DNA from: Komagataeibacter sp. FNDCF1
Lineage (GTDB): Bacteria; Pseudomonadota; Alphaproteobacteria; Acetobacterales; Acetobacteraceae
DNA length: 64,000 bases
Assembly (NCBI RefSeq): GCF_021295335.1
Contig: NZ_JAIWOT010000001.1
Span: 375,001 to 439,000 of the forward strand
Direction: 5' to 3'
Shown: positions 11,811-26,439 of the stretch, one piece after another
Position numbering within the stretch: the first letter of the stretch is position 1
Layout: the number at the start of each line of letters is the position of its first letter
Program-made: the position numbers and the translations under genes
The notes under the pieces: generated by a model
Databases searched by the model: none
What the model saw: only the letters and a program-made list of their open reading frames with translations
Told to the model about the DNA's origin: nothing

Positions 11811-13241
11811 TCAATGGTTGGCGTGCCTGGGTGCGCACTTTTTTAGCTTAACCTGCCCGAGCCAATTCGTCTTTTCGCACATCCGATTTGGGTCTTCAGC
11901 AGGAGGTTTATCACCATGCTCAAAAGTATAAAAGAATACCGTATAACCATTCGAGTCCGCGTGAAACATATCCCTGGAGTAGAAAGAATTCATTAAGGAC
12001 TTTTTTGCTGAATTAAGAAAATCTGTCCTTTGGTCCCCTTCCTGATTTAATAGGACACAATTTCTGGCATAGAAAAACTTTCCGTCTGGCTGAACCATGT
12101 GGCAGCGGATTGATAATTTTGAATAAATATATGATACATCATCGCTTAGGTTATCAGGAAATTCTGCGCTTTCTATATGTCCTTTAAGCGGCTCCCCAAG
12201 TTCTCCAGAACCCGGGAAATAAGAATTTCCAAGATATTTCACGACATTTACCCATGGAGCGACAACTTCCTCCCCCGATGCGGACTGATATTTTGTAGGA
12301 GGCGCTCCCATAACGACGGCTAATTCTCCGTAATTAATATGCCCGTTTGGATCATGAACTATAGTCGTATATACGGTATTGGGATTATACCCAAGTCCAT
12401 TTATTGAAGTAGAAATCTGATTTATCAATAGTATTGTGCTGCTATCAATCCACTGTTTCTGTCCTATTATTGAATTGATGCGTATTATGAAACATTTTCC
12501 TTCTATCGAATATGGGTCATCGAAACCAACCGCATTTAGCGTCTTCGGATATCCGCCACACATACTGTATATGCTCATCTCTCCGGCGTGATTATCTGAA
12601 GGAGGGGCGGGGGCGGCGTCTATAGTAGGGGGCGTAGGCTTTTGTGGACTTTGAGGATTACTGCCATTTTGCTGCAGCGCCACAGCATCATCATTCGACA
12701 GAAAGCCGTCTACAGACGGGCGGTGAGTTACCCTTTGCCACGTCTCTATAGCCGTCCTAGTCCCCTCCCCATACACACCATCTGCCACTGATCCAGTTGG
12801 CAGGTATCCAAGATCAATCAGCCTCTTCTGAAGCTGTATGTGTTGGTCTATCGGTCTTGTCGCCTCCTCTAAAGCATCGCCTGAAAGCCTTCCCCGATAG
12901 GTCGCGGTCAGATCATTCATGTGCGATATATAGCATGATGGAGACGCCTGCCCGCTGGCGGGATCAACGCAGTTCCCTGATGCGTCCTGATCTGATATGG
13001 CCTGCGCCTTCAGGTCTTTCCAGCCAGGCTTTCCGACTTGCTGACGCAGGGCATAATATGCTTGGTCGAACTGAAGTTCAGATTTTGCAGCATCGCTATT
13101 TTTACAAAGCATTGTAGCGACACTGTTGTTGGAAAGATCAGCAGAGCAAGAAAAATCGGGATGATATTCCTGCGCAGATGCATAAGAAATAGGCAATCCC
13201 GCGCAAACAAATGCTAAAAGCAGCTTTCTAATTGTCATCAT
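11811..13241 (-). CDS. Secreted protein with LprI-like and peptidoglycan-binding domains
   Basis: 476 residues with a clear signal peptide (KLLLAFVCAGLPISYASAQE). Residues ~28-100 (FSCSADLSNNSVATMLCKNS...FDQAYYALRQQV) resemble the Cys-containing LprI/lysozyme-inhibitor N-domain. Residues ~135-190 (QKRLIDLGYLPTGSVADGVYGEGTRTAIETWQ) form a PG_binding_1 module. A Pro-rich linker then leads to a large, unrecognised C-terminal domain with several cysteines. Base composition is visibly more AT-rich than the phage genes around it, suggesting separate origin. It overlaps the following (upstream) repressor gene by 14 bases, so both may form one transcript. Possibly a lysogen-expressed envelope protein; function otherwise unknown. 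Confidence 0.6.
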   Translation of the reverse strand: MMTIRKLLLAFVCAGLPISYASAQEYHPDFSCSADLSNNSVATMLCKNSDAAKSELQFDQAYYALRQQVGKPGWKDLKAQAISDQDASGNCVDPASGQASPSCYISHMNDLTATYRGRLSGDALEEATRPIDQHIQLQKRLIDLGYLPTGSVADGVYGEGTRTAIETWQRVTHRPSVDGFLSNDDAVALQQNGSNPQSPQKPTPPTIDAAPAPPSDNHAGEMSIYSMCGGYPKTLNAVGFDDPYSIEGKCFIIRINSIIGQKQWIDSSTILLINQISTSINGLGYNPNTVYTTIVHDPNGHINYGELAVVMGAPPTKYQSASGEEVVAPWVNVVKYLGNSYFPGSGELGEPLKGHIESAEFPDNLSDDVSYIYSKLSIRCHMVQPDGKFFYARNCVLLNQEGDQRTDFLNSAKKSLMNSFYSRDMFHADSNGYTVFFYTFEHGDKPPAEDPNRMCEKTNWLGQVKLKKCAPRHANH

Positions 13242-13431
13242 CTTCCACTCTTAAATGCCCTTCAAGCCCCTTCGCGATCAGGCGACGGATGGCTTCGGGG
13301 CGGGTGATCCCGTTATCGGCAGCCCACGCCTCCAACGCATCGAGAAGGGGGCGTTGCAACCGCGCGGTCACTTCGTCGCTGTCTACCCTCGGTCGGCCTT
13401 TTCTTTTTTTGCTGGCATTTAATGTTGACAT
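13228..13431 (-). CDS. Ribbon-helix-helix repressor
   Basis: 67 residues. It has a basic start (NASKKRKGRPRVDSDEV) and the RHH fold: TARLQRPLLDALEAWAADNG (strand and helix A) and ITRPEAIRRLIAKGLEGHL (helix B). Such proteins bind DNA as dimers. It is divergent from the Rha antirepressor, across a region with paired inverted repeats, so I infer it represses that promoter and its own. A fragment of a second, related gene lies at 24,374-24,435. Confidence 0.7.
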   Translation of the reverse strand: MSTLNASKKRKGRPRVDSDEVTARLQRPLLDALEAWAADNGITRPEAIRRLIAKGLEGHLRVEDDDN

Positions 13432-13520: not shown

Positions 13521-14297
13521 ATGACGACAGCTACCGCTGCCATTACCACGATTCCGCTTACCATGTCCTCCCGTGAAATCGCGGAGCTTACGGGGAAGCG
13601 TCACGACAACGTGGTCCGTGACATTGAAAAGATGCTCAATAACGTTGGGATGGGTCTCCTCAAGTTTGAGGATACCTACACGAACCCGCAGAATGGTCAG
13701 AAATATCGCTGCTACAATCTTCCAAAGAACCTAACCATCAACCTGATTGCGGGCTACCGGGATGACATGCGGCTCAAGATCATCGACCGCTGGATGGAAT
13801 TGGAAGCGCAGGAGCATAAGCCGCTAGTCCCCCAGACCTACGCCGAAGCCCTTCTCGAAGCGGGCCGCATCGCAAAGGAGCGGGATGCGCTGAAGGTGGA
13901 GAACAGGGAGCTTGCCGTGAAGGGCGCGGCTCTGGACCGCATTTCCACTGCCACTGGCACGCATGGGCTGTATGAGGCTGCGAAGATATTGCAGGTCGGT
14001 CCCAAGAAGTTCGTGATGTGGCTAGCGTCCAACCAATGGATCTACAAGCGCACTGGCAGCAAGGTGTGGCTGGCTCGGCAGGAGAAGATAAACGCCGGGT
14101 ATCTGTGGCATAAGGTGGACACCTTCACGGATGCCAACGGGGAAGAACGGACCCGCGACACGGTGAAGGTTCTGCCGAAGGGTTTGGAGAAGCTGGCCAA
14201 GGTCGTGCCTGGTGCTCATATCGACGCGGATTATGCCGCTGTTCTTGAGGCCGACATGCGCCCTTTCGCCAAGAACTCGGAGACCGCAACAATGTAG
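13521..14297 (+). CDS. Rha/KilAC phage antirepressor
   Basis: 258 residues in the unshifted form. The N-terminal pRha domain has SSREIAELTGKRHDNVVRDI (residues ~15-35), then the KYRCYNLPKNLTINLIAGY block and DRWMELE. After a coiled coil (~residues 108-135) comes a KilAC/ANT domain with TGTHGLYEAAKILQVGPKKF and WIYKRTGSKVWLARQEKIN. Such antirepressors release phage promoters by binding repressors. It lies in a cargo cassette inside the tail genes. The end contains a slippery heptamer (14261) leading into a conserved -1 frame, listed separately. Confidence 0.8.
   Translation: MTTATAAITTIPLTMSSREIAELTGKRHDNVVRDIEKMLNNVGMGLLKFEDTYTNPQNGQKYRCYNLPKNLTINLIAGYRDDMRLKIIDRWMELEAQEHKPLVPQTYAEALLEAGRIAKERDALKVENRELAVKGAALDRISTATGTHGLYEAAKILQVGPKKFVMWLASNQWIYKRTGSKVWLARQEKINAGYLWHKVDTFTDANGEERTRDTVKVLPKGLEKLAKVVPGAHIDADYAAVLEADMRPFAKNSETATM
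14261..14267 (+). promoter_or_regulatory. Candidate -1 frameshift site at the end of the Rha gene
   Basis: The heptamer C CCT TTC is in the reading frame as cgC CCT TTC (X XXY YYZ). GAGG at 14247-14250 lies 10 nt upstream, as in dnaX-type shifting. The same heptamer, frame and spacing occur in the second antirepressor at 26134. Confidence 0.6.
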
Positions 14298-14770
14298 CCC
14301 TCAAGGAAAACCCAGTCAGCGGCCACTACCCAGAGGATGAAGAACTTCTGATCTGGATAGCGAACTGCGAGGCGTGGGAAACACACCTCACGGGCCGACC
14401 GAACGATGCCAACGCGAAGTGGCGGCGGAACGACCTGATCCGGCACATCCGCTGCCGTCTGGGCATCAAGGTTGAGGTCGAGCAGGCCCGATGCATCTTC
14501 CTGCGTAAGCGCGGGATTAGCGTAGAGCCGCAGGAGGAAGTGAAAGTAGACACTTCACCCGAGAAGATCGGAAAGATGTGCTACGACCCGTTCTTCGGCG
14601 TGCGAGACTATGTTGATGGCAAGACGACCGCCGAAGAACTGTGGCAGGCCATGGGAGAGTGCGCGCAATATGTCGCTCGTGTTATCGCGGACCGGGAGGG
14701 GCAGTCACGACCGCCCGCTGCGGTGAAGATGATGGGTCTGGGTGCGGCATCAATCGCGCGCCAGCGATAG
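14267..14770 (+). CDS. -1 frame extension of Rha antirepressor (conserved domain A)
   Basis: From the slip the frame runs 167 codons to TAG 14768-14770; a shifted product would be 416 residues. The first 95 residues contain GHYPEDEELLIWI, WETHLTGRPNDANAKWRRND and ARCIFLRKRGISVEP, which recur in the second antirepressor extension. The frame has no ATG, GTG or TTG between its opening at 14249 and the GTG at 14540, so separate initiation would lose the conserved part. The remaining residues (EKIGKMCYDPFFGVRDYVDG... to ARQR) are unique to this copy. A frame error in the sequence is the alternative, but two copies share the layout. The domain is unknown to me. Confidence 0.55.
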   Translation, partial: RQELGDRNNVALKENPVSGHYPEDEELLIWIANCEAWETHLTGRPNDANAKWRRNDLIRHIRCRLGIKVEVEQARCIFLRKRGISVEPQEEVKVDTSPEKIGKMCYDPFFGVRDYVDGKTTAEELWQAMGECAQYVARVIADREGQSRPPAAVKMMGLGAASIARQR

Positions 14771-24441: not shown

Positions 24442-24720
24442 CTAATCTTTCCGTTTGGAAGATAAAAAGTCCTGGAGATCGGTTTTCATTGCAGCCAAAT
24501 CACTATCAACTTTGGCGTAAAATGGTCGAATGGCTTCTTCGATGAGCGTATCTAACCGCGCTCTTGCCTTATCTTCATGCAGAACCATTCCACTCTTCGC
24601 CAATTCAATGCAGGAAAGAATTTCCGCATTGATCGATCGGTTATTGGCCTTCGCCTTTTCTTCGACCCACTCTTTCAAATGGCGAGGAATCCGCAGGCGG
24701 AAATGTGCATCGTCGGACAT
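24442..24720 (-). CDS. Arc-family DNA-binding repressor
   Basis: 92 residues from ATG at 24720. Its N-terminus DAHFRLRIPRHLKEWVEEKAKANNRSINAEI is the Arc/Mnt ribbon-helix-helix pattern. The C-terminal ~45 residues form a coiled coil (ARARLDTLIEEAIRPFY; LAAMKTDLQDFLSS). An earlier in-frame start would place the start inside the operator region. It is divergent from a second Arc-like gene across four repeated boxes. Confidence 0.75.
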   Translation of the reverse strand: MSDDAHFRLRIPRHLKEWVEEKAKANNRSINAEILSCIELAKSGMVLHEDKARARLDTLIEEAIRPFYAKVDSDLAAMKTDLQDFLSSKRKD

Positions 24721-24801
24721 GACGCAAGAATGACGCATTTTGCGCTTGACCTCAATGACGCTATTTGGCACACAAAAGAGGCATGACGCATTTCGCGTCA
24801 T
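24719..24801. promoter_or_regulatory. Operator array of ATGACGC boxes
   Basis: ATGACGC occurs at 24719, 24730, 24755 and 24783. The last forms a perfect dyad ATGACGC-ATTTC-GCGTCAT (24783-24801); the one at 24730 is followed by ATTTTGCG, a half dyad. Position between two divergent Arc-type genes indicates binding sites for them. Confidence 0.6.
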
Positions 24802-24816
24802 TTATGAGAGGGAGAT

Positions 24817-25002
24817 ATGGAACAAGACCACATGCGGTTACGCTTGCCGAAGCAACTTAAAGAGTGGGTGAAAGCATCCGCAGAGAGAAATCACAGGAGC
24901 CAGAACGCTGAAGTCCTGTTCTGGCTATCGCACGCAGCGCAAACAGAAAAGGCATCAGGGTCCGGTTTGGCGACTTCCCCTGATGCCTCTCACGCTGAAT
25001 AA
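24817..25002 (+). CDS. Arc-like regulator (short)
   Basis: 61 residues with a GAGAGGGAG site upstream. The N-terminus (HMRLRLPKQLKEWVKASAER and NHRSQNAEVLFWLSHA) is an Arc-type ribbon-helix-helix, without the long coiled coil of its partner. It is divergent from the longer Arc gene and heads an early-gene operon (25014, 25310). This resembles an arc/mnt or cI/cro-like switch controlling antirepressor expression. Inference only. Confidence 0.65.
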   Translation: MEQDHMRLRLPKQLKEWVKASAERNHRSQNAEVLFWLSHAAQTEKASGSGLATSPDASHAE

Positions 25003-25013
25003 GGAATACAGCT

Positions 25014-25313
25014 ATGCAGAAACGTAGCACTTCAAAAAACTATAGTCCAGTCATTCAGAACCTGCGCGACAGCGTTCTTACGATAGATACTTATGTCCAG
25101 ATTGGGCATCGTATTGGCCTTTCATGTCATGCTCAGGGAAGAAGGCCCCTTGATCTCCACGGTCCAGTTGAAGGCGCAGCGTTTGCCATCGCTGAAATGG
25201 CGAAGATTTCCGGAATCAAAACAGAAGATGCCATGAGGATCGCGGCGGCGATGGCGGACTCTGCTATGCGTGCATTTGAAGAAGCGGAAGAAGCTAAGGG
25301 AAGCGTGGCATGA
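25014..25313 (+). CDS. Hypothetical protein upstream of antirepressor
   Basis: 99 residues, soluble, mainly helical, with a basic start (QKRSTSKNYSPVIQNLRDSV) and a helical end (DAMRIAAAMADSAMRAFEEAE). No family recognised. It overlaps the antirepressor start (ATGA), so the pair is co-translated. It may modulate the antirepressor. Confidence 0.55.
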   Translation: MQKRSTSKNYSPVIQNLRDSVLTIDTYVQIGHRIGLSCHAQGRRPLDLHGPVEGAAFAIAEMAKISGIKTEDAMRIAAAMADSAMRAFEEAEEAKGSVA

Positions 25314-26170
25314 CCCAGCAGATCACGACAATCGACTTCCACGGTTCAAACCTTATCGCGATCCCCGGAGATCGTCCCGAAACCGCACTTGTTGCGATGA
25401 AGCCCGTTGTTGAAGGGATGGGGCTGAAATGGGAAAGGCAGAGGGAAAAAATCCAGTCGCATCCTATTCTTTCATCTGCCCCCTCCATTCAGGGGGTGCA
25501 GATGCCGGGAGACGATCAGGAACGTCAGCATCTCTTTATGCCTCTGAACCGCCTTAATTTTTGGCTTGCAACCGTCAATCCCAATCAGATCAAGAACGAG
25601 GAAACCCGTGCCAAAGTCATCGATTACCAGACTGAATGCGCTGATGTCCTGTTCAACCACTTCTTCGGCAAGGCCATTGCATCGGGCGCTCATCTGACTG
25701 CCCAACAGGTCGGCGGCATCGTCAAGTCCGGCCTCGGTAAGATGCACCGCGAGATCATGGCCGAAATCCGTGCTGAACTGAAAAACGAACTGACGCCTAT
25801 TCTGCAAAATGTCCGGATCACCCACCAGGCGGGCGCATCAGCCGTGACAGACAAGACGGCGAAGGAATGGCTTGACCAGTATGGGTGCGTGCAGAAGGGG
25901 CGTGGTAAGGTTGTCCTCAAGGTCAGCAATGCCCTGCGTGCCTTGGCCAATAAGATGGGCACACCACTGTTACGCTGCGCCCGCACAGGAACGTGGCTGT
26001 TCCCCTACACCATCGCTATTCCCTTTATGGAGGGGCAGGGAAAGGCCATTATCCGCATGCACAATGACTTCATCCAGTTGGGCCAGCGTCCTATCCCAAT
26101 GGAGAAGGCTGTCAAGGGAGGGTCAGTAACTGCCCCTTTCGCGAAATCCCCGGAGCCAGCGGCAACGTAG
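25310..26170 (+). CDS. P22-type antirepressor
   Basis: 286 residues in the unshifted form. The N-terminal ~120 residues (TTIDFHGSNLIAIPGDRPET; VVEGMGLKWERQREKIQSHP; FMPLNRLNFWLATVNPNQIK) are the P22_AR_N domain of phage antirepressors. The C-terminal part (TAKEWLDQYGCVQKGRGKVV; ALRALANKMGTPLLRC) is not homologous to the Rha gene. It is the target of the Arc-pair promoter. The end holds the slippery heptamer 26134-26140. Confidence 0.8.
   Translation: MTQQITTIDFHGSNLIAIPGDRPETALVAMKPVVEGMGLKWERQREKIQSHPILSSAPSIQGVQMPGDDQERQHLFMPLNRLNFWLATVNPNQIKNEETRAKVIDYQTECADVLFNHFFGKAIASGAHLTAQQVGGIVKSGLGKMHREIMAEIRAELKNELTPILQNVRITHQAGASAVTDKTAKEWLDQYGCVQKGRGKVVLKVSNALRALANKMGTPLLRCARTGTWLFPYTIAIPFMEGQGKAIIRMHNDFIQLGQRPIPMEKAVKGGSVTAPFAKSPEPAAT
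26134..26140 (+). promoter_or_regulatory. Candidate -1 frameshift site at the end of the P22-type antirepressor
   Basis: The heptamer C CCT TTC lies in frame as gcC CCT TTC. AAGGGAGGG at 26114-26122 ends 11 nt upstream, a strong Shine-Dalgarno-like stimulator as in dnaX. It mirrors the site at 14261. Confidence 0.65.
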
Positions 26171-26439
26171 CGCAGGAGGATACCGTCAGTGGCCATTGCC
26201 CGGAAGACGAGGAACTCCTGATCTGGATAGAAAATTGTGAAGGATGGGAACGCGCCCTGTCTCACAGGCCGAATGACGCACAGGCAAGGTGGTCGCGGAA
26301 TGACTGTATCCTGCGCATTCGGACGCGGATCGGGCGCAAGAAGGGTGTCGAACAGACCCGATGCATCTTCCTGCGCAAGCGGGGGATTAGTGTGGAGCCT
26401 ATAGAGCTTCGCCCCGTGCCACACAGGCAGATTGCATAA
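26140..26439 (+). CDS. -1 frame extension of P22-type antirepressor (conserved domain B)
   Basis: 99 codons from the slip to TAA 26437-26439, giving a 376-residue fusion. It contains GHCPEDEELLIWIENCEGWE, SHRPNDAQARWSRND and TRCIFLRKRGISVEP, homologous to the extension after the Rha gene. The frame opens after TGA 26065-26067 and has no ATG/GTG/TTG before this conserved block. Many third-position differences between the copies (GAG GAT GAA GAA CTT against GAA GAC GAG GAA CTC) leave the protein unchanged, which shows selection for translation. A terminator follows five bases later. Confidence 0.6.
   Translation, partial: REIPGASGNVAQEDTVSGHCPEDEELLIWIENCEGWERALSHRPNDAQARWSRNDCILRIRTRIGRKKGVEQTRCIFLRKRGISVEPIELRPVPHRQIA

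Follow-up and report, generated by a model that had tools for sequence, protein, structure and literature searches.

Sequence comparison indicates that antirepressor-type genes of Komagataeibacter very likely carry a conserved, functional −1 programmed frameshift, which would reside in a swappable cassette. The best reading, held with considerable confidence, is that SD-stimulated slippage would yield two products from each such gene, a short antirepressor and a tail-extended form. Two of these genes lie in the window, the whole 64,000-nucleotide stretch of Komagataeibacter sp. FNDCF1 that was analysed (positions 375001-439000 of contig 1; genome size 3.74 Mb).

Results

The first window gene (13521-14297, plus strand) encodes a zero-frame product of 258 aa with an Rha N-terminal domain (Pfam Phage_pRha, 8e-18) and a KilAC domain (ANT, 5.2e-23). 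Its 3' end reads CGC CCT TTC GCC AAG...TAG, placing the heptamer C_CCT_TTC (14261-14267, plus strand) in the register that fits a −1 slip out of the Rha ORF, as the initial annotation had described. The zero-frame TAG (14295-14297, plus strand) follows 34 nt past the heptamer start, and the SD-like GAGG noted earlier is indeed present 10 nt 5' of the heptamer (14247-14250, plus strand). The tail ORF in the −1 frame (14249-14770, plus strand) matches phrog_32902, to which no function is assigned. ORF inspection agreed that its earliest ATG, GTG or TTG is the GTG at 14540, and the predicted fusion of 416 aa is consistent with 249 zero-frame plus 167 −1 codons.

The second gene (25310-26170, plus strand; 286 aa) encodes an antirepressor-type protein with a P22_AR_N domain (2.4e-28); for both window heads, the Pfam domains scored above the curated cut-off. 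A second copy of the heptamer (26134-26140, plus strand) is preceded at 11 nt by the SD-like AAGGGAGGG (26114-26122, plus strand), with an anti-SD energy of −10.5 kcal/mol for the 8-nt window AGGGAGGG. The −1 frame (26068-26439, plus strand) has its earliest canonical start at GTG 26392, and the predicted fusion comprises 376 aa by codon count. The two window tails are 73% identical across 74 residues and both match PHROG 32902, confirming that they contain the same conserved domain. The initial annotation had further argued that a coincidence of heptamer, spacing and frame in two genes is unlikely. This argument does not hold: the two genes are not independent because the cassette, including the heptamer, is common by descent, with the window copies homologous from the heptamer on. 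The appropriate argument is conservation across a larger set of copies.

When the window was scanned together with the fetched loci, 28 tail rows resulted. L029 (at 49944) was removed as a duplicate of L027, three fragments lacking the first 35 residues (L036, L037 and L040) were left out, and L048 was kept apart as a divergent relative. The resulting set of 23 copies consists of 16 from nine genomes, four from the phages phiKX1 and phiKX2, and three from IMG/VR contigs, one copy (L057) being cut by the contig end. In all 23, CCCTTTC stands at the cassette start in the −1 register and the zero-frame stop lies at +34; the layout claimed for the window genes is thus kept on different heads throughout the set. 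With L048 included, a conserved X_XXY_YYZ heptamer is found in register inside the overlap in 23 of the 24 copies that have both a tail and a cassette start. None of the 23 contains an ATG, GTG or TTG between the heptamer and the tail motif GHxPxDE, so that the overlooked upstream start that might have undone the proposal was sought and not found, and the ORF pair overlaps in −1 without a downstream start of its own, as in programmed −1 frameshift genes. A tail-frame GTG occurs 63 nt 5' of the heptamer in 3/23 copies. The codon preceding CCT ends in C in every copy, though six different residues are encoded.

Of 19 Komagataeibacter genomes searched by profile, 11 have the first tail, two of them (G135 and G212) as fragments only. 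Tail matches in genome draws from the family, order and class all fell in Komagataeibacter. Among named records, the tail occurs in genomes of K. melaceti, K. oboediens and K. diospyri as well as in phages phiKX1 and phiKX2; the copies in two genomes of the genus, G204 and G207, are identical to those of named K. melaceti and K. oboediens contigs. Both phages have the tail annotated as a separate gene (L027:5109-5525 and L028:5100-5519). In PMC8566455, the source of both, PHAST classed phiKX1 as incomplete and phiKX2 as questionable, and neither 'frameshift' nor 'antirepressor' occurs in the main text.

In the one exception, L048, the tail is still in −1 but CCCTTTC is missing from the homologous site, which reads GCCGGAA at the ungapped heptamer position and GTCTTTT when aligned by eye. 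L048 has an upstream CCCTTTC with an SD-like GGAGG, whose −1 frame ends after four codons (L048:3890-4300), followed by a longer overlap with A_AAG and U_UUU tetramers and then the tail in −1. Our guess would be that its slip site has perhaps been relocated, with A_AAG or U_UUU serving instead. A further locus, L071, which was found via its head rather than its tail, is decayed: TTTTTTC stands at the expected cassette start and most of the tail is lost (L071:1835-1960).

The first tail sits behind Rha, KilA-N, Bro-N, ORF6N and P22_AR_N heads. Pfam searches on 12 of the 23 heads returned Rha + ANT, Rha without an ANT match, KilA-N, ORF6N with or without ANT, Bro-N + ANT, and P22_AR_N. The description of the heads as unrelated stands for the window pair, since the Rha/KilAC and P22_AR_N heads show no mutual match at E ≤ 1e-3; as a general statement it does not, because several heads have N- or C-terminal modules in common and are mosaic rather than wholly unrelated. 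Clustering by the last 90 nt gave 12 head classes, or 10 if an in-register shared 9-mer also merges classes. With one representative for each of the 12, column conservation ranged from 0.33 to 0.83 over the 30 nt upstream and was 1.00 at all seven heptamer columns. Conservation therefore jumps at the first base of the heptamer, and the shared block begins at the slip site.

To assess the specificity of the heptamer, mechanical ORFs of at least 200 aa were taken from the window and the two phages, 172 in total. Their 57,394 codon triples contain C_CCT_TTC in frame at six sites, every one of them a junction whose heptamer starts 34 nt before the stop; the count is descriptive, since phiKX1 and phiKX2 are closely related and the mechanical ORFs include some that do not represent genes. 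Outside these junctions, none of 96 Pro-Phe pairs is written C|CCTTTC, against approximately 4% expected from codon usage.

We scored SD-like character as duplex energy with CACCUCCU, averaged over representatives of the head classes. The mean energy for 12 representatives is lowest 6-10 nt 5' of the heptamer, the region in which the GAGG of the Rha gene lies, and reaches −5.3 kcal/mol at 9 nt compared with −1.0 kcal/mol over all positions; this is the minimum among all scored upstream positions (about 540-590). When the 10 stricter classes were used, none of 100,000 random placements reached so low a value, whether or not codon phase was imposed. The site is weak in L011 and L012. As a sequence feature, an SD-like element is thus present at a stimulating distance, making it a candidate for the common stimulator.

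A stimulatory RNA fold downstream of 14267, proposed earlier as a check, did not emerge in either window gene (shuffle z-scores of +1.07 and +0.41 for nt 12-72). Nor was a general downstream structure, an optional stimulator, found across the copies: mean z was −0.45 for nt 12-72, and −1.19 for nt 12-112, the latter being a value without a coding-sequence control. Four copies outside the window (L016, L021, L047 and L057) have a strong hairpin around the zero-frame stop, from ~16 nt after the heptamer start, with a 60-nt fold of −25.7 to −28.5 kcal/mol that is weaker in L022 of the same sub-lineage. In this sub-lineage the hairpin is a possible extra stimulator.

Selection was analysed by pN/pS on 21 copies, leaving out L009 (one-codon deletion) and the partial L057. 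Past the zero-frame stop the tail frame is under purifying selection, with a value of 0.55 vs 1.06 and 1.20 in the other frames. Within the 27-nt overlap (nine codons), purifying selection shows in the zero frame (0.63) and not in the tail frame (1.08), the third frame giving 1.02. Neither of the zero-frame stop columns T34 and A35 varies, even though the latter falls on a third codon position of the tail frame. Invariant tail third positions number 6/70 after the stop and 2/9 in the overlap, both of the latter inside the heptamer. AlphaFold predicts an all-helical tail, with a three-helix core (residues 24-83, pLDDT about 85-95) plus a helical extension that is less certain; the mean pLDDT is 72.6 and the whole-model pTM 0.48. 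No trusted fold match was found for the model, and no Pfam match at E ≤ 0.01 in the 19 tails scanned.

The junction also occurs with a second, different tail. Across the 19 genomes there are 18 KilAC places. The first tail follows at seven of them, and at six CCCTTTC occurs 34 nt ahead of the stop and leads to a different tail; of the remaining five, four lack a junction and one (L071) is decayed. One place, L062, was judged through L084. All five P22_AR_N places have the first tail, as do two of six KilA-N places; the other four KilA-N places have no junction, three of these being the KilAC-place genes without one. The genome of the window itself holds a third C_CCT_TTC junction outside the window (L072, G000:C1:1220794-1220830), on a KilAC gene with a second-family tail and a GTGA start-stop overlap.

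We examined 11 second-family copies, including three viral contigs, L122 from another genus and Acetobacter phage phiAX1. The zero frame of L122 is open for just 21 codons, and its head is therefore broken or gone. The stop is at +34 in 10 of the 11 and at +31 in phiAX1, and an ATG or GTG overlaps the TGA stop in every case. In phiAX1 (L123:1602-2818) the same junction lies on a KilA-N gene with a second-family-related tail and an ATGA overlap, and is annotated as two genes with a 4-nt overlap. Because of the ATGA/GTGA start-stop overlap, coupling is a real alternative in this family; judging by the codons, its tail could be produced by reinitiation without slippage. The overlap of start and stop also means that the heptamer is kept where tail expression does not need a slip.

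Discussion

We propose that the majority of ribosomes would reach the zero-frame stop and release the short antirepressor-type regulator. Some would slip one base back on C_CCU_UUC, with Pro re-pairing from CCU to CCC and Phe from UUC to UUU, probably aided by 16S rRNA pairing with the SD-like sequence upstream. Slipped ribosomes would then read the −1 frame, adding a small helical tail to the same regulator, and the tail may alter the binding partners or assembly of the regulator. Slip signal and tail would form one cassette, set behind different antirepressor heads by recombination. In a survey of heptamers in E. coli, 61 of 64 gave values above twice background with the IS3 pseudoknot; C_CC.U_UU.C is outside the three that failed, and all-pyrimidine motifs belong to the more shift-prone type, strong stimulators having been used (PMC4066793).

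The second family is the main complication for this proposal: either the junction serves a double function, or conservation of the heptamer has some other cause in this family. It also bears on a rival account, in which translational coupling (termination-reinitiation) at the head stop yields the first tail as a protein of its own and the heptamer is incidental. We regard this as improbable. The start codons overlapping TGA in 11/11 second-family copies and the two-gene annotation of phiAX1 speak in its favour, but in the family of the window the tail-frame codon over the zero-frame stop is GTA (21/23) or ATA (2/23), never ATG, GTG or TTG, and no near-cognate codon was found at a single fixed place across all 23 copies. 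Furthermore, the ATG annotated as the tail start in phiKX1 and phiKX2 is at offset 96, inside the conserved domain, and is missing from both window copies. For the window's tail family, slippage thus appears from the reading frames to remain the sole evident route to the tail.

A slightly smaller probability attaches to the heptamer being kept only as the start of a recombination DNA block, or for the zero-frame peptide PFAK, with no frameshift taking place. The DNA similarity of the head classes does begin exactly at the heptamer, constraint within the overlap acts on the zero frame, and the second family keeps the heptamer next to a start codon. However, this leaves the SD-like minimum at frameshift spacing unexplained, offers no account of purifying selection on a start-less tail frame or of the constant −1 register, and is at odds with the absence of C|CCTTTC from Pro-Phe pairs beyond the junctions. 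Decayed copies (the three fragments and L071) could suggest that the genes are broken fusions, arising from an indel or sequencing error, with the tail a relic. This is the least credible alternative and scarcely merits weight: the identical layout of the 23 distinct copies, which come from nine genomes as well as two phages and three viral contigs, excludes the indel that the initial annotation had named as a refutation, and the tail is under purifying selection. The searches made found no in-frame relatives with a shift-free ancestral form.

Programmed frameshifting thus remains our preferred reading, and a wider scheme can be put forward tentatively, at somewhat less than even chances. A portable junction (SD-like element, C_CCT_TTC, ~27-nt overlap and stop) would be reused, joining numerous antirepressor heads to two or more unrelated tails. 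With a TAA or TAG stop the tail would be made as a frameshift fusion only, and with TGA overlapping ATG or GTG it would also be made alone by reinitiation. Phages would mix regulators and tails, and the letters of the stop codon would set whether a free tail exists.

Ig-like domains are joined by frameshifting to diverse phage proteins and spread between phages (PMC5009743, citing Fraser et al. 2006). The cases described there concern virion proteins, with a shift that may be −1 or +1 or lacking altogether, a variation put down to chance in that review. The predicted system is similar in that a C-terminal domain would be appended to different phage proteins; in contrast, the heads here belong to regulators, a −1 shift applies to all tail-bearing copies that have a cassette start, and, with the exception of L048, the same heptamer travels with the tail. 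An Ig-like β-sandwich was rejected for the tail, as the predicted model is all-helical and the scanned tails lack Pfam matches. FseA of ICEMlSymR7A (msi172-msi171) combines DUF6499 and DUF2285 by a +1 programmed frameshift (PMC10359603, PMC5009743). These accounts concern one domain pair and a +1 shift and, in the sections on FseA, mention no head swapping, unlike the genes described here. What the two have in common is a regulator on a mobile element of an alphaproteobacterium that programmed frameshifting builds from two ORFs, here as a prediction. Pfam includes models for DUF6499 and DUF2285, neither of which matched any of the 12 heads or 19 tails; with the tail in −1, identity to FseA was rejected.

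In dnaX, −1 frameshifting involves an upstream SD at a set spacing and the motif A_AAA_AAG. An upstream GGAG SD similarly takes part in the −1 frameshifting of IS911 (PMC4066793), and −1 frameshifting has been described for the cro gene of phage A2, as read in E. coli (PMC5009743). The junctions resemble dnaX and IS911 in combining an X_XXY_YYZ heptamer with an upstream SD-like candidate stimulator, and differ in having C_CCU_UUC rather than A_AAA_AAG and in that no conserved 3' structure was found. The P22 immI region, in which Arc and Mnt accompany the antirepressor Ant, provides a parallel for the gene neighbourhood, since ribbon-helix-helix genes adjoin both window genes. Two Arc-like genes lie upstream of the P22_AR_N head (24442-24801, minus strand, Pfam Arc 3.8e-10; 24817-25002, plus strand, 4.3e-08), while the divergent gene beside the Rha head (RHH_1/CopG; 13228-13431, minus strand) matches RHH_1 (1.3e-06) rather than Arc. 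Of 15 relatives checked, 13 have similar ribbon-helix-helix or Arc-like genes in the 2 kb upstream. We know of no frameshift tail on P22 Ant.

Programmed frameshifting in tailed phages is best known from tail-assembly chaperones and virion proteins. Both the mechanism and frameshift-appended phage domains are therefore familiar; a slip cassette common to regulators, as predicted here, would be new, and the literature searches made found no earlier description of frameshifted antirepressors. Frameshifting is apparently recurrent in the antirepressor-type regulators of one bacterial genus, and a cassette starting at the slip site appears to have moved among different DNA-binding regulators. Two isoforms are implied for each such regulator, hidden from current annotation, since phiKX1 and phiKX2 list separate hypothetical genes whose tail start lies inside the domain. 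The series of junctions would also offer a natural comparison of the evolution of SD-assisted slippage after exchange of the sequence upstream.
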